In this document: one piece after another, positions 14,747 through 29,913 of the stretch
Numbering within the stretch: the stretch's first letter is position 1
Layout: each line of letters begins with the position of its first letter
NCBI GenBank assembly: GCA_028706655.1
Contig: JAQTVW010000008.1
Span: 1-33,052, forward strand
Source of the DNA: Dehalococcoidales bacterium
GTDB lineage: Bacteria > Chloroflexota > Dehalococcoidia > Dehalococcoidales > RBG-16-60-22
Direction: 5' to 3'
Length of the DNA: 33,052 nt
The notes under the pieces: model-generated
The model's database searches: none
Told to the model about the DNA's origin: nothing
Seen by the model: the letters and a program-made list of their open reading frames with translations, nothing else
Made by a program: the position numbers and the translations under genes

Positions 14747-16798
14747 CTAGTTAGCCGGTTTTTCCTTGCTCAGAGCTTCCGCGATTAGCTCGCTCAGGTC
14801 GCGGGCTTTCACCGTCTCTTCGACGCCCTTGGCTTTCAAGGCATCTTCAAACATGGCGAGGCAGTACGGGCAGGCAGTCGCCACAATATCCGCGCCCGAT
14901 TGGACGACTTCCTCAACACGGCGGGTATTCAAGCGTTTGGACGGGTCTTCTTCCAGCCACATGTGTCCGCCGCCGCCGCCGCAGCAGAAGCTGTTTTCGC
15001 CGCAGCGTGCCAGTTCCACGCTCTGTATGCCGCTGATGGATTTCAAAATCTGGCGCGGCTCGGCATAAATATCGTTATAACGCCCCAGGTAGCAGGAGTC
15101 ATGGTAGGCGGCTTTCTTGTTACCGATGCTATCCACCTTGAGCTTGCCGCTTTTGAGCAGGTCGGCGATAAATTGCGTGTGATGGATGACCTCATAATTA
15201 CCGCCGAACTGCGGGTACTCTTTCTTCAGCGAGTTGAAACAGTGCGGGCAGGCGGTGACAATCTTCTTCACGTTGTAATTCTTGAAAAGCTCGACGTTCC
15301 CCTGGCAGATGGTCTGGAACAGGTACTCATCGCCCATCCGGCGCGCCGGGTCCCCGCAGCAGGTCTCTTCTTCGCCCAGCACGGCGAACTTGATATCCGC
15401 CGCCTGCATTATTTTGGTGAAAGACTTGGCGATTTTCATATTGCGCTCATCGAGGCCGGCAGAGCAGCCGACCCAGTAGAGGATATCAACATTGCTGTCT
15501 TCCGCCATGGTCTTGACGCCCAGCCCCTGGAACCAATCGGTGCGGGTGGCAGTGGTGCCGCGGTAGGGATGCCCGCGGGTACCCAGGCTCTTCAGCGCGC
15601 CCTGTCCCGATTCGGGGATGGAAGTGCGTTCCATGGTCAGGTTACGGCGCATGTCAATCAGCTTGTCGACATGCTCGATGTAGACCGGGCAAGCCCGCAT
15701 ACAGGCGCGGCAGGTGGTGCAGTCCCAGATGACTTCTTCGGTAATGACATCGGTCAGCATGTCCTTGCGCGGCTCGATGGGCTTGGCGACCAGCGGAACG
15801 GGGTAGGTCTCCTGCATGTGTTTGAGCAGGTCCTGGACTACTTTCTTGGGATTGAGGGCTTTGCCGCTGAAATGCGCCGGGCAGGCGTCCTGGCAGCGCC
15901 CGCAGCGGGTGCAGGCATCGAGGTCGAGGAGCTGCTTCCAGGTAAAATTCTCAATCTTGGAAACGCCGAAGAACTCTGTCTTCTCCAGATCGATAGGCTG
16001 AAGGGCGCCTTTAGGCTTCAACGAGCGGAAGTAAATATTGAGCGGTGAAATTACAATGTGCTGCAAGCGCGAGCGGTTAATCCACATGTAGCCCAGGATA
16101 ATCGCGGCAGGCACGGTGTGGATAACGGCGCGGTGCCAGACCAAAATGTCGTTGCGGGCAGCCAGCGCGAAAGTGCGCATGACGTATGATAGTAGATAGC
16201 CTACCGGCGACCACATCCACCAGTCGGGCGGGATGATATCGCTGCTGGCGATGCGGTAGCCCTTGACCATGAAGCCGGTGAGCACGATGATGCCCGCCCA
16301 GATGAAGACCAGGCTATCTTCCGGCTTGGTGTCCAGGCGTTCCGGTTTAAGGATATAGCGGCGGAAAATAGCCAAACAGCCGCCGATGATGATAATCGCG
16401 CCGCCGATTTCCGAAATCAGCGAGGCAAACAGGTAAATGCTCTGCGGTGGCGTCGTTATTCCGGTAAGATAAGAAACGAGACGGATAATCTTGCCGGTGA
16501 ACAGCAGCGCCGTCCCGCCGAAGAGGCAGGCGTGCATGATGCCGGGATACAGTTCTTTCTGGCGGATGATGCGGATGTTCGCCACGGCAACGGCGAGGGT
16601 CGTCAGCAGGCGGGTAAGCGCATTACCGGAACGGTCTTCCGGCTGCCCCAATTTCCAGATACGGGCGCGGCGGTAGAATCCGAAGGCGAAGACCAGCGCT
16701 AAAACGGGGACCAAGAGCAACACGGCAATGATAACCGGCAAAAACATCTGCATGATGTAGATTTCTTGCCCCGTCCAGAAAAGCTCGCGCAAAGACAT
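14747..16798 (-). CDS. NarI/DsrM-like membrane domain fused to HdrD/DsrK-like iron-sulfur protein
   Basis: 683 residues in two parts. Residues 1-255 form about six membrane segments with histidines suited to heme b (H89 in PGIMH, H222 and H227 in WHRAVIH, H247 in LQH), as in NarI/DsrM quinol-heme subunits. Residues 290-680 are HdrD/DsrK-like: two [4Fe-4S] motifs (C296/299/302/306 and C360/363/366/370), then two complete CCG domains (C445, C480-481, C517, C520; C569, C599, C605-606, C643, C646). In HdrB/D such domains bind the noncubane clusters that reduce disulfides. The likely role is to pass electrons between the quinone pool and a cytoplasmic thiol/disulfide partner; the substrate is unknown. 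GGGAGAAGG precedes the ATG. It is the last gene of the six-gene operon. Confidence 0.9.
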   Translation of the reverse strand: MSLRELFWTGQEIYIMQMFLPVIIAVLLLVPVLALVFAFGFYRRARIWKLGQPEDRSGNALTRLLTTLAVAVANIRIIRQKELYPGIMHACLFGGTALLFTGKIIRLVSYLTGITTPPQSIYLFASLISEIGGAIIIIGGCLAIFRRYILKPERLDTKPEDSLVFIWAGIIVLTGFMVKGYRIASSDIIPPDWWMWSPVGYLLSYVMRTFALAARNDILVWHRAVIHTVPAAIILGYMWINRSRLQHIVISPLNIYFRSLKPKGALQPIDLEKTEFFGVSKIENFTWKQLLDLDACTRCGRCQDACPAHFSGKALNPKKVVQDLLKHMQETYPVPLVAKPIEPRKDMLTDVITEEVIWDCTTCRACMRACPVYIEHVDKLIDMRRNLTMERTSIPESGQGALKSLGTRGHPYRGTTATRTDWFQGLGVKTMAEDSNVDILYWVGCSAGLDERNMKIAKSFTKIMQAADIKFAVLGEEETCCGDPARRMGDEYLFQTICQGNVELFKNYNVKKIVTACPHCFNSLKKEYPQFGGNYEVIHHTQFIADLLKSGKLKVDSIGNKKAAYHDSCYLGRYNDIYAEPRQILKSISGIQSVELARCGENSFCCGGGGGHMWLEEDPSKRLNTRRVEEVVQSGADIVATACPYCLAMFEDALKAKGVEETVKARDLSELIAEALSKEKPAN

Positions 16799-16810
16799 TC
16801 CGCCTTCTCC

Positions 16811-17026
16811 CTAAAAACCAGGATACCACGCCGTCAGGTGGGCGATGAAAAAGAGTACGATAACGCAGCCGACGAACAGGAACGCCATGTTGACTGCTTT
16901 GGTGTAGCGCGGGTTGATGCCCAGGTCAAAGACCGCGAGCTTCACCCCGAACAACACCGAATAGGTGATGATACCCAGGATGCCCACTTCAACAATAATT
17001 GCAATCGTTCTCAGTAAGATGCTCAT
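16811..17026 (-). CDS. Small two-helix membrane protein in the redox operon
   Basis: 71 residues with two hydrophobic helices (about 6-27 and 44-66) joined by a short polar loop containing LGINPRYTKAVNM. No cofactor residues are evident apart from one His near the C-terminus (AHLTAWYP). It lies 3 bases after the ferredoxin gene and 12 bases before the HdrD-like gene, so it is almost certainly made together with them. It may be a structural subunit that docks the ferredoxin or the fused subunit in the membrane. I do not recognise a family. Confidence 0.7.
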   Translation of the reverse strand: MSILLRTIAIIVEVGILGIITYSVLFGVKLAVFDLGINPRYTKAVNMAFLFVGCVIVLFFIAHLTAWYPGF

Positions 17027-17029
17027 CTG

Positions 17030-17539
17030 TTATACCTTAACCTTACTGCCGGATTCTCTCCGGTTTCTCATCTGTGCCTTTATTTTACAGTCAGAACAAA
17101 TTTCAATATTAACGGCAGGCTGACCCGCCGCCAAGATTTTCGCCTTGATGCTGTTTATCATCGCCCGGGGACCGATGGGGCCGCCGCATTCGGTGCAGCG
17201 CGCAATCTCGTCCTCGAAAAGTACCGCCGCCGGACTGCCGAATTTTTCAACTTCCAGCCCGTGTTCCATCTTCAGGCAATGTTCCGGGCAGAGTTCCACG
17301 CATTTCCCGCAGGCGATGCAGACCTGCTGTTTGAAAAGCATCTGTACCGCGCCGGTGGTTTCTTCCAGAGAGATTGCCAGCGCCTCAGTGGGGCACTCGG
17401 CAGCACAGAGACCGCAGCCGGTGCAGCGGATGCGGTCCAGCGTTATTTTGCCGAACGGCACCGCCATCTTCAATAGCTCCCGGCGACTGATTTCGCCGCC
17501 AGTAAAATTATTTTCATTCTGGTTCATTGTTTCGTTCAT
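17030..17539 (-). CDS. Two-cluster ferredoxin with C-terminal CxxC pair
   Basis: 169 residues. Two [4Fe-4S] motifs are present: C39/42/45/49 and C74/77/80/84, the second ending in CVELCPEHC. A C-terminal CTECGGPIG (C115, C118) and CSDC (C148, C151) pair could hold zinc or another cluster. Residues 18-24 read S-R-R-E-L-L-K, resembling a twin-arginine motif, but no hydrophobic stretch follows, so export by itself is doubtful. The ATG overlaps the NrfD stop as ATGA, so translation is coupled; a second in-frame ATG lies 12 bases on. It probably carries electrons between the NrfD side and the HdrD-like subunit in the cytoplasm (inference from order). Confidence 0.85.
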   Translation of the reverse strand: MNETMNQNENNFTGGEISRRELLKMAVPFGKITLDRIRCTGCGLCAAECPTEALAISLEETTGAVQMLFKQQVCIACGKCVELCPEHCLKMEHGLEVEKFGSPAAVLFEDEIARCTECGGPIGPRAMINSIKAKILAAGQPAVNIEICSDCKIKAQMRNRRESGSKVKV

Positions 17540-18768
17540 TTAGGTGCTTCCGCAGGCGCTGCCGGAATTTCCGCAGCAGGTGCCGGCGTCGGAGCGGCTA
17601 CTTCCGCCGGTTTTGCCGGCAGTATGGGCAGGTATCTCAGTCCCAGCACGAAGAGGAGCGCTACCATGGCGACTGCCCCGAGAGACATGGTGGTTTCCCA
17701 GAAGGTGATGGAGAAGGTTCCGGGGGTGCCCCAGACGCCCTGTAATTCGCCGGGGAAAAGGTTCTGTACCTGTGCTGTGCCGGGAATTACGATAGCGGCA
17801 CGTTCGCCGAGCACACCGATGACCACGGACGCCGAGGCGGTCATGACACCCTTGAGGCTCTTGCCCCACTTAGGGTGGAAAAGGATGATGAGGGGTATCA
17901 CGATGCCCATGCCGATTTGCAGTATCCAGAAAAGCCACCAGTAGGGCCCGGTCATCAGAAAGACCGCGCCTTCCCGGTGCGGGAAGTAGGTGTGCACCAG
18001 TTTATCGAAGAAGACCATAATCAGTAATACGATGATGAAATAGGACAGCAACTTGCCCAGGGAAATCAGCAGCTTGGGATCAAGATGACGCTTGCTCTTC
18101 TTGAAAGAAATATAAGCGAGGATAATCAGCAGCGAAGTACCTGAGGTGCACGCGGCAACCACGAACTCGAACGGCTTGATGGGCGAGGTCAGGATTTCGC
18201 GGGTGCTGATTAGACCGAAAATCGACCCGGTGAAGGTATGCACCAGCACCGCCCAGCATACGTCCACAGTACCGATAAGCGTGGCGAGGTGGTGTTTGCC
18301 TTCCATCACCAGCCAGAGGTAAACAATCATCAGCAGGATGTAGCCGCCGTAGAAGATGCCGTTGATGGCGAACACCGAGGTCATGTTGTTCAGGTAGAAG
18401 AACATGAAGAGCCGCCAGAACTTCTCCGGTCGGCCCAGGTCGGTGAGGACGCAAATCATCGCGCCAATCATGCACAGGAGACCGACGTAGACGGCAAGTC
18501 TGCCGATGGGCTTATATTCCTCTTTCTTGAAGACGTAGCCCAGCGAGGAGACGACGATAGCGCCGGCGCTGAGACCGATGAAATAGATATCCAGGGTAAT
18601 GAGTTGCCCCCAGGGCACGGTATTGCTGACTCCCCAGACCTGGAAGCCTTTCAGGTACGCTGTCAGGTAGCTGACGATGAAAATCGCTATCACAATCCCG
18701 ATGGCGAACACCATGTTGCGGTAGCCGCGGGACTTGCCTTCGATTGGTGAGTAGCTCAGTTCTTCCAT
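17536..18768 (-). CDS. NrfD/PsrC-family membrane subunit
   Basis: 410 residues with about ten membrane helices, matching NrfD/PsrC-type quinone-interacting anchors of complex iron-sulfur molybdoenzymes. Family features include GQLITLDIYFIGLSAGAIVVSSLGY near the start, LGRPEKFWRLFMFFYLNNMTS (the common LGRP..FW motif), and helices extending to a final LFVLGLRYLPILP. A Pro/Ala-rich tail (last 25 residues) is unusual and probably cytoplasmic. It should exchange electrons between the B subunit and menaquinone; family members have no heme. AAGGAAG precedes the ATG. It lies 9 bases after the B-subunit gene and overlaps the next gene by 4 bases. Confidence 0.92.
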   Translation of the reverse strand: MEELSYSPIEGKSRGYRNMVFAIGIVIAIFIVSYLTAYLKGFQVWGVSNTVPWGQLITLDIYFIGLSAGAIVVSSLGYVFKKEEYKPIGRLAVYVGLLCMIGAMICVLTDLGRPEKFWRLFMFFYLNNMTSVFAINGIFYGGYILLMIVYLWLVMEGKHHLATLIGTVDVCWAVLVHTFTGSIFGLISTREILTSPIKPFEFVVAACTSGTSLLIILAYISFKKSKRHLDPKLLISLGKLLSYFIIVLLIMVFFDKLVHTYFPHREGAVFLMTGPYWWLFWILQIGMGIVIPLIILFHPKWGKSLKGVMTASASVVIGVLGERAAIVIPGTAQVQNLFPGELQGVWGTPGTFSITFWETTMSLGAVAMVALLFVLGLRYLPILPAKPAEVAAPTPAPAAEIPAAPAEAPK

Positions 18769-18777
18769 GCTTCCTTC

Positions 18778-19467
18778 TTATCTGGGCAGGTAAAATACTT
18801 TGGGTTCGGTATGCATCTCTTCGCGGAGACGGAACCAGGTGCGCGTCGCCAGCAACTGCGATACTTCGCTGTCGGGGTCGTCAAGGTCGCCGAAAGCGCG
18901 GGCGCGGGTCGGGCAGGCTTCTACGCAGGCGGGCACGACATCGGTGCCGACCTTTTTGCCGTCCTTGAGCGCCTGGTCAATGCGGTGGAAACAGAAGGTG
19001 CACTTCTCCACGACGCCGCGGACTCTCTGCGGATAGGGCCACATGCCGCGCACGGAAAGAGTAGGCGGTAAATCGGGACGGTGATAGGGTTTAACTTCCT
19101 GGTCTTTGAAGTTGAAATGTCTTACGCCGTAAGGACAGGCGACGATGCAATACCGGCAGCCGATGCATTTGCGATAGTCCTGTACCACGATATGGTCGGG
19201 CTCGCGATGGTAGGTCGCCTTTGCCGGGCAGACGGTAGTGCAGGGCGCTTTATCGCAGTGCATGCAGGGCATGGGGATGAACTCCCAGCGCTGGGTGGGA
19301 TACTTGCCCTCGGCGGCGGCGATAACACGGTGCCAGTACGGTTCGCGGCGTCTCGCCTGCTCCTCCGGGGAACCGTGCGGGACGTCATTTTCTGCCTTGC
19401 AGCCCAGGCTGCAAGCCTGACAGCCGATGCACTTATCCAGGTCGATGACCATGCCCCATCTTGCCAT
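18778..19467 (-). CDS. Four-cluster ferredoxin subunit (PsrB/NrfC/DmsB-like)
   Basis: 229 residues with all sixteen cysteines for four [4Fe-4S] clusters: C13/16/19/23, C68/71/76/80, C101/104/107/111 and C156/159/181/185. It is the electron-transfer subunit between the molybdopterin-type subunit and the NrfD anchor. It has no signal peptide; in such complexes the B subunit is exported folded together with the Tat-bearing A subunit (family knowledge). The C-terminal FGDLDDPDSEVSQLLA segment is typical of PsrB/NrfC proteins. GAGG precedes the ATG, 8 bases after the A-subunit stop. None of the cysteines forms a CxxCH heme c motif. Confidence 0.94.
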   Translation of the reverse strand: MARWGMVIDLDKCIGCQACSLGCKAENDVPHGSPEEQARRREPYWHRVIAAAEGKYPTQRWEFIPMPCMHCDKAPCTTVCPAKATYHREPDHIVVQDYRKCIGCRYCIVACPYGVRHFNFKDQEVKPYHRPDLPPTLSVRGMWPYPQRVRGVVEKCTFCFHRIDQALKDGKKVGTDVVPACVEACPTRARAFGDLDDPDSEVSQLLATRTWFRLREEMHTEPKVFYLPR

Positions 19468-19475
19468 GTCTTACC

Positions 19476-21818
19476 TCAAGCCCTGTAAACCCTGACCCGG
19501 GTGTTATAGAAGGCGGACTGACCGCTGGTGTGGTCGTAAGCCACGCCGGTAATATCATTGGGATTGATGCCCATGCCCTCCGCCCAGCGCCCGCCCGCCG
19601 TGTGACCCTGCCCCATAGCGATGCTGACGACATGCGGGTGCACGCCGGTGAAGACGCGGGCTTTCGCCTTGAGCTTGCCGAAAGGCGATTCCACCCAGAC
19701 CTCGTCGAGGTCGTCGATATGCAGTTCGTGGGCGGTCTCTTCGTTGATTTCCACGAAGTTGCCCCAGCCGCGGGCATGCATCGCCAGGTAGATTTCCTGC
19801 GCCCAGGGGTAGTTCTGGATATCGCTGTCAATCTTGAGCACCGGGTGATAGGTGGTCAGAACCAGCGGGTATTGTTTCTCATCGCCGAAGAACTCGGCAG
19901 GTTCGTAATGCGGCAGGTACGCCTGCTCGTTGCCGGTCTTGCCCAGTTCCTTGAAGCGCGCTTCAAGGTTGCCCGATCGGAACTCGAACTTCTTGGAGGG
20001 TGTCTTGAAAATGCTGTCATATTTATTAAATTTATAGCTGGTATCCACCCATACGCCGTCGCTGAGCAACTTGCTCCAGCCCAGCAGGTTTCCGGTGCGG
20101 AACTGCACGAATTCCTGGGCGTTCTTGCCCAAGCCCATGAAGGACTGCGTCACGCTGCCGCCGAGCCTGCCTGCCAGCTCGAACAGGACATCAATGATGC
20201 TCATCGAATCGTAAAGCTTCTCAACCGCAGGCTGCTTGAGCTTGACTTCGGCGAAGCCGGAGCCGGGCGGCGAGTGGTCATAGCCCCATTCTTCCAGGAA
20301 GGTGGGCGAGGGCAGGACGATATCGGCGTATTCCGCCATCTCGCTGACGGACGGAGCGATATGCACATAATAGGGAAGCTTTTTCAGTGCCTCGCCCCAG
20401 CGTGCCGTCGCGGGAGCGGACATGTTGAAGTTGCAATTGAAGCCAAATGCCATCTCGATGTTATATGGTTTGCTTTCGATAATGGAATCCGCCGCCTGGT
20501 TGGTCACCGTTTCCGCGGCCGGGAAATCGGCGGTGTGACCCAAATCGATACGCGGCTGTGACTTGCCTTTCTTGGCGGTATCGTCTTCAGTCACGGCGGG
20601 CAGGGCTTTGTAATCGGGGTTTAGCTGGTAAGTGACGCCGCCCGGCGCATCGATACTGCCGACCAGCGCGTTGAGACAGAAGATGGCATAGCTGGTGTAA
20701 GCGCCGTTGGGCCAGCCGGTGGCGCCCCTGCCCCGCCAGGCGATTGCCGGTTTAGTAGCGGCGAACTCGCGGGCGATTTTCTCAATAGTTTCAGCGGAGA
20801 TGCCGGTGATTGACGCGACCTTCTCAGGGCGATAATTCTCGACAACGAGCTTGCGGTAGGCATCGAACCCCGTGGTATATTTCTCGACAAAACTGGTGTC
20901 GTAGAGTTTCTCGGCGATAATGACCCATGCGATTGCCATCGCCAGGGCGGCATCGGTGCCCGGATTGATGGGCAGCCACTGGTCGCTCTTGGCGGCGGTG
21001 ACGGAATAGCGCGGGTCGACGACGACCACTTTGACGCGGTTGGGGCGCTCGCGGCGCATCTTGCCCCACATGCGCAGGTTCCGTGCCAAGGGCTTCTGCG
21101 ACTCCACGATGTTCGCGCCGAAAGCCAGAATGTAATTGGTACGGGCGAGGTCATAAGCGCTCTGGGTGAAATTGCCGTCAGCCATCCACTCGCCGGCTTT
21201 GTCCGCTTCGTTCTCCAACCCTTCGGCAGAAATCAGGTTGGGCGTGCCGTAAGACTCGGCGAAGCGGCGAATGACGTCTTCATCGCTGATGGTATTCAAG
21301 CCCTGGAACAGGGCGAGCTTGTGCGGGTTGCCGCCGGCGCGCAGGTCGATGAGGTGAGCGGTTATATCCTCCAGCGCCTGTCCCCAACTGATGGGCGTCC
21401 AGCGGGGGTCGATGCCCTTGCCCTTGGCGGAGTTCGTCCGCTTCATGGGGCTCTTGAGGCGGTCAGGGTCGTACAAGACTTGCAAACCGATGTGGGCACG
21501 AGGGCAGTTCTCGCCTTCGGATACCTGTGAAATGGGATTGCCGGCTATCTTGACGGCTCTGCCGTTGACTACCCGGACACGGGTAGCGCAGCGGGTGGCG
21601 CAGTTGAGGCAAGAGGTCGCGACATACTTCTCGGTGATGGCGCCCTCCGGGGGGCGTTCGATGAGCGCATCCGCCAGCGCGGGACGGTGAGCTAAACGCA
21701 GCGCTACAGCGGTTGCCGCACCGGTCAACGCGGTAAGTTTGATAAATGCCCGGCGGGTAATATTGAAGCGGCTCTTCTTAGAGTCGCCCGTGCTTTCGTT
21801 AGCTTTCCTCAAATCCAT
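19476..21818 (-). CDS. Tat-exported molybdopterin oxidoreductase family subunit (PsrA/QrcB-like)
   Basis: 780 residues. A twin-arginine signal (TRRAFIK, 21-27), a hydrophobic stretch and a likely cleavage after A47-L-A49 show export. A [4Fe-4S] motif (C70, C73, C77, C105) and the molybdopterin-fold blocks follow, including YILAFGANIVES, VVVDPRYSVTAAKSD, GRGATGWPNG and a C-terminal MGQGHTAGGRWAEG dinucleotide-binding block. Where relatives place the Mo ligand (Cys, Ser or Sec), about 11 residues after Y-G-T-P-N, I align Glu202. It could be an unusual molybdoenzyme, or a QrcB/ActB-like subunit without molybdenum. Substrate unknown; polysulfide, thiosulfate or tetrathionate are family possibilities only. 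First gene of the operon. Confidence 0.9.
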   Translation of the reverse strand: MDLRKANESTGDSKKSRFNITRRAFIKLTALTGAATAVALRLAHRPALADALIERPPEGAITEKYVATSCLNCATRCATRVRVVNGRAVKIAGNPISQVSEGENCPRAHIGLQVLYDPDRLKSPMKRTNSAKGKGIDPRWTPISWGQALEDITAHLIDLRAGGNPHKLALFQGLNTISDEDVIRRFAESYGTPNLISAEGLENEADKAGEWMADGNFTQSAYDLARTNYILAFGANIVESQKPLARNLRMWGKMRRERPNRVKVVVVDPRYSVTAAKSDQWLPINPGTDAALAMAIAWVIIAEKLYDTSFVEKYTTGFDAYRKLVVENYRPEKVASITGISAETIEKIAREFAATKPAIAWRGRGATGWPNGAYTSYAIFCLNALVGSIDAPGGVTYQLNPDYKALPAVTEDDTAKKGKSQPRIDLGHTADFPAAETVTNQAADSIIESKPYNIEMAFGFNCNFNMSAPATARWGEALKKLPYYVHIAPSVSEMAEYADIVLPSPTFLEEWGYDHSPPGSGFAEVKLKQPAVEKLYDSMSIIDVLFELAGRLGGSVTQSFMGLGKNAQEFVQFRTGNLLGWSKLLSDGVWVDTSYKFNKYDSIFKTPSKKFEFRSGNLEARFKELGKTGNEQAYLPHYEPAEFFGDEKQYPLVLTTYHPVLKIDSDIQNYPWAQEIYLAMHARGWGNFVEINEETAHELHIDDLDEVWVESPFGKLKAKARVFTGVHPHVVSIAMGQGHTAGGRWAEGMGINPNDITGVAYDHTSGQSAFYNTRVRVYRA

Positions 21819-28478: not shown

Positions 28479-29747
28479 CTAGGCGGTGTAGCCGCGGCTA
28501 AAGAAGCGGAGGGCGGCGACCTGGTTGACCGCCTGGTTGAGCAGTTTCTTGTCCAGTGTCAGTTCAGCGTTGGTGGTGCGCGCCAGGAAGACCTGCGCCA
28601 TTCTCTGGCGGTCTTTCAGGGCGGCGCGGGTGCCGAGCCCGCGCAGGTTCTCCGGGTCCTGGTAGTATTTGAAATTCGCCATTTCATCGGCGTTCAGCGG
28701 GTCGGGAATGCCTTTGGGCGCTTCGGGCACGGTCAGGTGAATCGCCAGCCTTGCCGGATGCGCCTGGAGCAGCCCGGCAACGTATGCCCATGCCGAGAGC
28801 ACCGAAAGCGTGAATGCCTTCATGCGATAGTTGCGGCGGTCGAGAGGGCTTTTCTTGATTGCGGTGTACTGGGTGGCATGAAGTTTCGCGAAAGCCTTGC
28901 CGGCTTCCGCCAGTCCTTTGTCCGTCCAGAGGGCGCTGCCTTTTTCTTCGGTCAGCTTGCGGTATTCTTCATCCAGAACGATGCCGGTCTGGCACAGATA
29001 AGGCTCATAAACATTCATGTCCAGTTGTTCCGGCTTGAGCTGCTCACCCGCCTGCTTCCCCTTGAAATAGTTGACGATAAAGCTGCGTGCCGCCTGGACG
29101 GTGATTCCCTCAGCGCGGGAACCGGCATCGAGGAAGTCCTCGCCCTTCTTGAGCAAGCCCATTTTGAGGCACCACCGTCTCAAGTGCGGACCCATGAACG
29201 CCTCTTCCAATTGCCGGTCGAACAGGTCGTTAGAGGCGGCGATGCTGGTATTGGAGACGAGAGCAAGTTCGGCGCGCTGCTCCTTGGACAGGTTGAAATA
29301 GACGCGGAAGCCGTGATAACGGGAGACCTTCTTGTTCTTGTAGGCGTCCATAATCGCCTTGGAACGGTGCTGCCCGCCCCAGACTTTCAGGGGCTTGTCC
29401 GGCGAATAGGACGTGATATATTCGGCGATAATATCGTTGAACTCGCGCTTGTTTTCGGCGTCAGATTCCATGCGGATAAAGGTGTTGTTCCGGAGCATCA
29501 GTTCCCGGTTGTCCCGGAAGGTATCACTGCCGTCCGGGTTGAGACGCGCGTCCAGGCTGACTTTTTTAGCGACGGTCTCGCCCGCGACGGTACATCGGAT
29601 ATAGTAGCTCTTTTTGACCCCGTCCTGGAACAGAATCACCGGGCAGCTTTTCTCTGCCTCGCCGGTACTAACGCTTTCCAAAAATGCCTTTACATTGTTT
29701 TCAACTTCTTTGTTTGCCGGTGCGCTCGCATCAAACTTGATTTGCAT
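28479..29747 (-). CDS. DGQHR/DndB-like protein (ParB-like fold), orphan
   Basis: 422 residues. Contains W-G-G-Q-H-R (123-128) followed by SKAIMDAY, the hallmark of DGQHR-domain proteins related to DndB and ParB-like folds, and a downstream LVSNTSIAASNDLFDRQ stretch like the Asn-rich helix of that group. In Dnd systems DndB is a regulator of phosphorothioate modification, but no dnd, brx or other defence genes are adjacent, so this is an orphan. The start is fixed at 29747: GAGGT lies 6 bases upstream, and the promoter (29784-29812) lies inside the longer reading frame, which would otherwise begin at 29816. It ends at a terminator and thus is a single-gene unit. The C-terminal 200 residues are helical and unrecognised. 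Confidence 0.78.
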   Translation of the reverse strand: MQIKFDASAPANKEVENNVKAFLESVSTGEAEKSCPVILFQDGVKKSYYIRCTVAGETVAKKVSLDARLNPDGSDTFRDNRELMLRNNTFIRMESDAENKREFNDIIAEYITSYSPDKPLKVWGGQHRSKAIMDAYKNKKVSRYHGFRVYFNLSKEQRAELALVSNTSIAASNDLFDRQLEEAFMGPHLRRWCLKMGLLKKGEDFLDAGSRAEGITVQAARSFIVNYFKGKQAGEQLKPEQLDMNVYEPYLCQTGIVLDEEYRKLTEEKGSALWTDKGLAEAGKAFAKLHATQYTAIKKSPLDRRNYRMKAFTLSVLSAWAYVAGLLQAHPARLAIHLTVPEAPKGIPDPLNADEMANFKYYQDPENLRGLGTRAALKDRQRMAQVFLARTTNAELTLDKKLLNQAVNQVAALRFFSRGYTA

Positions 29748-29783
29748 TACTTTACCTCGATAAATTTGTGTTCTTCCAAGAAT

Positions 29784-29812
29784 ATTGTACTCTAACTGAA
29801 CATAAGGTTCAA
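29784..29812 (-). promoter_or_regulatory. Promoter of the DGQHR-like gene
   Basis: Minus-strand TTGAAC (29807-29812), a 17-base spacer and TACAAT (29784-29789). The predicted RNA start near 29777 gives a 30-base leader to the ATG at 29747 and rules out the upstream in-frame ATG at 29816. Confidence 0.7.
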
Positions 29813-29913
29813 TCATATTTTAGTCATGAATCAAACTGCATGCGGGAATGGTTACTGCACCTTGTCCTGTGGTAAACTTTGAATAGGGACAGCAAATTTC
29901 GGGAGGGCAACAT

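Follow-up and report, generated by a model that had tools for sequence, protein, structure and literature searches.

The window analysed here, a 33,052-nucleotide stretch that forms contig C82 of a Dehalococcoidales genome (1.82 Mb in 151 contigs, 94.6% complete, 6.6% contaminated), carries six consecutive minus-strand genes, A to F (Table 1), whose products we classified with Pfam and NCBIfam profiles. Recomputed spacings of 8, 9, -4 (an ATGA overlap), 3 and 12 bases agree with the first-pass annotation, as does the absence of a c-type cytochrome or dsrAB gene, none being seen among the six ORFs of the operon. Across this region, terminator-like matches do not exceed chance expectation and none lies between the six genes, a weak piece of evidence. 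All six genes, E included, are under purifying selection, with dN/dS values of 0.04-0.14 against the congeneric genome G001; together with a gene order kept in many genomes, this argues that the operon is not a chance arrangement, and the value for E indicates that the small peptide is a real gene. Elsewhere in the window (28479-29816) lies a gene for a 445-amino acid protein with a GGQHR stretch and no NCBIfam match, and genes resembling it stand near F-type genes in G001 (L037) and G054 (L054).

Table 1. Genes of the operon, with positions in the window.
Gene	Length (aa)	Position	Strand	Assignment
A	780	19476..21818	-	Tat-exported molybdopterin-type large subunit; closest to ArrA/PhsA
B	229	18778..19467	-	four-[4Fe-4S] electron-transfer subunit, QrcC/DsrO/ArrB type
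C	410	17536..18768	-	NrfD/PsrC-like membrane subunit, ~10 helices
D	169	17030..17539	-	two-cluster ferredoxin, HycF-like tail
E	71	16811..17026	-	two-helix membrane peptide
F	683	14747..16798	-	EtfD/EMO-type; NarI-like b-heme membrane domain, two 4Fe-4S, two CCG

The full order (A, B, NrfD, ferredoxin, small peptide, NarI/CCG fusion) occurs in 13 distinct Chloroflexota loci, and A-B-C-E-F with D missing is the order in all six Thermodesulfobacteriota-type loci whose sequence is long enough (Syntrophaceae and relatives; two are labelled 'uncultured bacterium' and cluster with Syntrophaceae in the tree of F). A-B-C-(D)-E-F is thus kept in 19 distinct loci from two phyla, and the absence of D from all six Thermodesulfobacteriota loci defines a core of five genes, A-B-C-E-F. 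An exported A-B-NrfD module paired with a NarI/HdrD-type fusion therefore stands as one conserved unit, as had been proposed, while the check suggested with that proposal, conservation of the six-gene order, holds across both phyla for E and F and fails for the ferredoxin. Scanning the contigs of named genomes with an A alignment yielded 26 loci, among them Syntrophaceae and other Thermodesulfobacteriota, and also one partial locus labelled Krumholzibacteriia; the named operon-carrying relatives of the window genome are Dehalococcoidales/Dehalococcoidia MAGs. In longer regions, A-B-C-D-E-F keeps its order on every contig of sufficient length, and the same arrangement is found in G447, a genome outside the taxonomic order. 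Among 121 relatives, F proteins of one clade (F-I, 63-90% identity) occur in 10 genomes, and A orthologs (56-86% identity) in those 10 and in one further genome that is 55% complete, with the next A matches falling to 33%; A and clade-I F thus co-occur almost perfectly among window-related genomes.

The C protein of the window is 61-63% identical to C of Thermodesulfobacteriota versus 42-50% to C of several Dehalococcoidales (comparison with L094, L095, L098, L099, L102 and L104), and the similarities of A and F run the opposite way; one possibility is that the operon has swapped its NrfD gene. Separately, in the single-contig MAG CP070645.1 (bin896), A shows up in two pieces separated by about 300 kb, beside masked stretches (L113 and L119), for which rearrangement, misassembly and masking are possible causes.

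Sequence comparison places F in the EtfD/EMO family of ETF:quinone oxidoreductases. Its best PDB match is Mycobacterium smegmatis EtfD (9ojn, E 6e-99, against 5e-8 for HdrB), in an alignment that begins at residue 232 and leaves the membrane part upstream outside it. The cluster ligands of EtfD are matched in F by C445, C480, C517 and C520 and by C569, C605, C606, C643 and C646; H247 aligns with the EtfD heme histidine H241, and H89 would be the second heme ligand. EtfD passes ETF electrons to menaquinone, and its cluster D2, completed by His583, is non-catalytic and differs there from Hdr (PMC13083937). The histidine that closes D2 is conserved in F as H519, giving CPHC where HdrB has CNGC. 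The first-pass annotation had called F part of an HdrD-like disulfide-reductase module and drawn an analogy with DsrMK, which would have the protein link quinol with a cytoplasmic thiol partner. F does carry CCG domains and, as in Hdr, adjacent cysteines C480 and C481, the second of which stands at EtfD Thr539, so that cluster D1 of F could be Hdr-like. Yet its closest relative is EtfD rather than HdrD or DsrK (it scores 80 bits against a DsrK profile with a cut-off of 400), it lacks the open catalytic noncubane site of HdrD/HdrB (CNGC, without the histidine), its relatives have etfBA neighbours, and by eye no gene for DsrC or another thiol partner was recognised near the operon. We reject the disulfide-reductase label and consider such a function very improbable.

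The genomic neighbours of F and its paralogs point in the same direction as its sequence. In three Thermodesulfobacteriota loci (L108, L110 and L111) profile-confirmed etfBA genes directly flank A-B-C-E-F, and F paralogs within the window's taxonomic order adjoin etfB/etfA (L124, L126 and L127) or etfA (L125); no etfBA genes adjoin the operon in the Chloroflexota loci. A second, solitary clade of F (F-II) adjoins genes for a MaoC-type hydratase, an acyl-CoA dehydrogenase and a thiolase, recognised by motif rather than by profile. Since F is a member of the EtfD family, keeps H519 and is linked, with its paralogs, to etfBA, its cytoplasmic partner is most likely ETF and not a thiol/disulfide protein. 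Among the 31 genomes of the window genome's family, F-I (or its A partner) occurs in 7 and solo F-II in 19 with an overlap of 0 (hypergeometric P 3e-4, with kinship among the genomes ignored), and this mutual exclusion looks like functional replacement. In L125 (genome G017), a NiFe-hydrogenase-like gene pair identified by eye follows EtfA and an F-III paralog, which suggests another ETF-linked output. AOR-like genes lie near A-B-C-E-F in L107, L108, L110 and L118, with profile calls in L108 and L118, and with HdrD/HdrA/MvhD-like neighbours they resemble, by eye, the class II benzoyl-CoA reductase (bam) gene cluster.

The other half of the operon encodes an exported molybdopterin-type module. 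A combines molybdopterin oxidoreductase domains (PF00384 and PF01568) with an Fe4S4 domain, and its Tat motif, RRAFIK, is a weak profile match in which R22, R23 and F25 are invariant in 20 orthologs. In genome G100, a TatA-like gene recognised by eye (L042:12445-12711) lies immediately upstream of the operon, which fits the export of A by the Tat system. Position 202, where ArrA has its Mo-ligand cysteine, is Glu or Asp in 16 of 20 orthologs, Asn in two and Gly in two, and this variability makes a conventional Mo-thiolate enzyme unlikely. In NarG an Asp is known to ligate Mo, and AioA-like or NarG-like chemistry in A is possible. One could read A as an active Mo/W terminal reductase or dehydrogenase for an external arsenate- or polysulfide-like substrate, and the operon as a dedicated respiratory enzyme, a proposal that concerns A alone and leaves room for ETF as the donor. 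Consistent with it, the best profile matches of A are ArrA and PhsA, ArrA is also its best PDB match, the FS0 cysteines C70, C73, C77 and C105 are invariant in the 20 orthologs, the pterin-binding GQGH region is intact, the window genome encodes MoaC, and the residues most frequent at position 202 include the one that ligates Mo in NarG. The same position nonetheless varies among E, D, N and G, the ArrA and PhsA profile scores of A fall far below their cut-offs (473 bits for ArrA, with a cut-off of 1600), and the operon has no evident maturation chaperone gene; on balance we think an active Mo/W enzyme rather unlikely.

B has 16 cysteines for four clusters, all cluster cysteines being present, and its Tyr106 is placed like Y113 of QrcC (PMC13059093), flanked by two cysteines that ligate the same cluster. 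C is an NrfD protein (PF03916, 1e-44) with the invariant NrfD hallmarks D110-LGRPEK, S131 and Y143. By profile, B and C resemble QrcC/DsrO and QrcD/DsrP; judged by spacing, S131, D110 and Y143 of C and Y106 of B are candidate counterparts of the quinone-site Ser and Asp and the proton-path Tyr of the Qrc NrfD subunit and of the Tyr in its four-cluster subunit, and no equivalent of Y110 is evident in this comparison. The next-nearest Chloroflexota A-B-C sets (L150, L151, L152, L153, L155 and L157), whose A is 34-38% identical, lack E and F and mostly have a D-like ferredoxin, several with a small CxxCH protein directly upstream and mostly with a non-cysteine residue at the Mo-ligand position of A. 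We regard them as a separate family, possibly cytochrome-coupled.

D carries two 4Fe-4S clusters and a HycF-like Cys2-Cys2 tail. At its position other Chloroflexota encode Fer-FlpD/MvhD-Fer proteins of 414-541 amino acids with HdrA2-like similarity, and the short D opens with the SRRELL motif of these long forms and then resumes at their second ferredoxin, so that D is probably a Fer-FlpD-Fer protein shortened by internal deletion. A Tat-like reading of its SRRELLK as an export signal was rejected: no hydrophobic segment follows, and the cytoplasmic long D opens likewise. On this evidence D is a cytoplasmic adaptor of variable form, which agrees with the lack of the gene in Thermodesulfobacteriota. 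In one locus of that phylum (L109:150-9823), HdrC-, HdrB-, HdrA-, MvhD- and FlxABCD-like genes, identified mostly by eye, stand directly before A. The FlpD/MvhD domain and HdrA2-like similarity of long D, with the Hdr- and MvhD-like genes of L109, would fit electrons running inward, from the periplasm through A or its partner to reduce ETF, as in enoyl-CoA respiration, or through D to a cytoplasmic Hdr/FlpD system. Enoyl-CoA respiration runs EMO inward, and Qrc passes electrons from a periplasmic donor to menaquinone. The short D of the window lacks the FlpD part, however, D is missing altogether from Thermodesulfobacteriota, and the operon contains no gene for a periplasmic donor, and we consider inward flow unlikely.

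E has two hydrophobic helices, a C-terminal YP motif and no family match in Pfam or NCBIfam, and its His63 is invariant wherever the sequence is unmasked. It is present in 19 of 19 distinct complete loci, none was found beside solitary F genes, and in L110 a single open frame spans both E and F. Predicted structures were too poor for use (pLDDT 62 for the L110 E-F fusion and 58 for A). These features of E bear on whether the operon encodes one machine or two independent quinone-linked enzymes, in which E-F would reduce quinone and A-B-C would reoxidise quinol from a diffusible pool. The half-modules do occur separately, F-type proteins alone in other genomes (solo F-II and F-III) and A-B-C-D-like sets without E-F in other Chloroflexota, beside CxxCH proteins, which makes two co-transcribed but independent complexes possible. 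There is also a documented precedent: in Syntrophus aciditrophicus, a diheme EMO (-80/-220 mV) reduces methylmenaquinone with electrons from ETF, and the redox loop is completed by a formate dehydrogenase on the periplasmic side (PMC8805022). In the loci described here, both ends of such a loop lie in one conserved operon. A pair of separate enzymes is harder to reconcile with the presence of E in every complete cluster and beside no solo F, with an order fixed over two phyla, and with the failure to detect a complete quinone pathway in the window genome, and we find it rather unlikely.

The quinone question is best seen against the gene content of the host. The window genome has four ETF alpha genes, one beside an acyl-CoA dehydrogenase and the others in three further ETF loci. 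One of the four belongs to a fused EtfBA that adjoins a classical ETF-QO; this is a second possible ETF dehydrogenase besides F, and the idea that F is the sole one was dropped. One NiFe hydrogenase is encoded. Dehalococcoides and its relatives do not synthesise quinones (PMC5736913). In the window genome, MqnA/D was not found and MenD lies below its cut-off, in a search that matches general ThDP-enzyme paralogs and that only 1 of 121 genomes passes; a complete menaquinone pathway was not found, only MenA- and MenG/UbiE-like genes, which favour the use of a quinone pool by two separate enzymes. A MenA-like prenyltransferase gene and MenG/UbiE are adjacent on contig C89 of this genome (L162:266-1921, G000), and the use of scavenged naphthoate precursors is possible. 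For hosts without a complete quinone pathway, one can also imagine a quinone-free transmembrane wire, in which a second b heme, bound by His63 of E and by the extra invariant histidines H222 and H227 of F, would pass electrons from ETF directly to the clusters of B while NrfD moves protons; we rate this variant as quite improbable.

We propose, with a probability of roughly 55%, that the operon encodes an ETF-linked respiratory complex that joins an EtfD/EMO module to a Qrc/Psr-like NrfD module. The sequences support the gene set, its order and cross-phylum conservation, the EtfD membership of F, the cofactor motifs and the ETF linkage. From these we infer a single complex of all subunits, its outward direction, its use of quinone and its outer partner. 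In this membrane-bound complex, with a core of A-B-C-E-F and D as an optional cytoplasmic ferredoxin adaptor, acyl-CoA dehydrogenases would reduce ETF in the cytoplasm, and ETF would deliver electrons to the CCG and [4Fe-4S] clusters of F. From there electrons would pass through the b heme of F to quinone, or by direct contact through E, to the NrfD subunit C and the clusters of B, and on through A to a periplasmic partner, with proton movement by NrfD allowing the proton gradient to drive the step or be harvested from it. By analogy with syntrophic and fermentative acyl-CoA oxidation, the flow would be outward.

Disposal of electrons from acyl-CoA oxidation is a key bottleneck in the anaerobic degradation of fats and aromatic compounds, and the operon offers a possible route for it in uncultured Dehalococcoidales and Syntrophaceae; if its products form one complex, a single machine could carry electrons derived from fat across the membrane. 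The gene set A-B-C-E-F is a concrete target, and the 'HdrD-like' annotation of such genes becomes testable. If real, this would be, to our knowledge, the first case in which an ETF dehydrogenase is hard-wired to an energy-conserving module of the Qrc/Psr type. The suggestion of an undescribed system needs qualification: the modules themselves are known, no description of this cluster was found in the literature searched, which took in few subscription papers, and, as far as we could find, it is the fixed combination of known parts with peptide E that is apparently undescribed.

Features common to F, mycobacterial EtfD (9ojn) and the EMO of S. aciditrophicus are the NarI-like membrane part, a pair each of 4Fe-4S and CCG domains, the ligands of the clusters, the histidine that closes D2 and the link to ETF; EtfD differs from F at the D1 position described above. 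Whereas EtfD and EMO are single proteins that work with quinone, F is genetically tied to peptide E and to A-B-NrfD. QrcABCD resembles the operon in its molybdopterin-type, four-cluster and 10-helix NrfD subunits and in the loss of the Mo ligand, but has a hexaheme QrcA where the operon has no multiheme cytochrome gene, and lacks the added EtfD module. QrcB is reported to contain no redox cofactor (PMC13059093), and A, which keeps its FS0 cysteines, appears intermediate. ArrABC, PsrABC and PhsABC follow the same A-B-C logic, with ArrA nearest to A in sequence; the operon differs in having no conserved Mo-ligating cysteine and in its EtfD, E and D genes. DsrMKJOP is likewise a single system built from NarI-like, CCG, four-cluster and NrfD proteins, but the operon has no DsrJ triheme cytochrome gene and no DsrC link, includes an A subunit, and encodes the counterparts of DsrM and DsrK as one EtfD-like protein; matches to the K, O and P profiles are all below curated cut-offs. 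The Dehalococcoides OHR complex (OmeA-HupX-OmeB), also from Dehalococcoidales and from hosts that likewise lack a full quinone pathway, shares the molybdopterin-type, four-cluster and NrfD core, and in place of its reductive dehalogenase and Hup hydrogenase the operon has an EtfD module.
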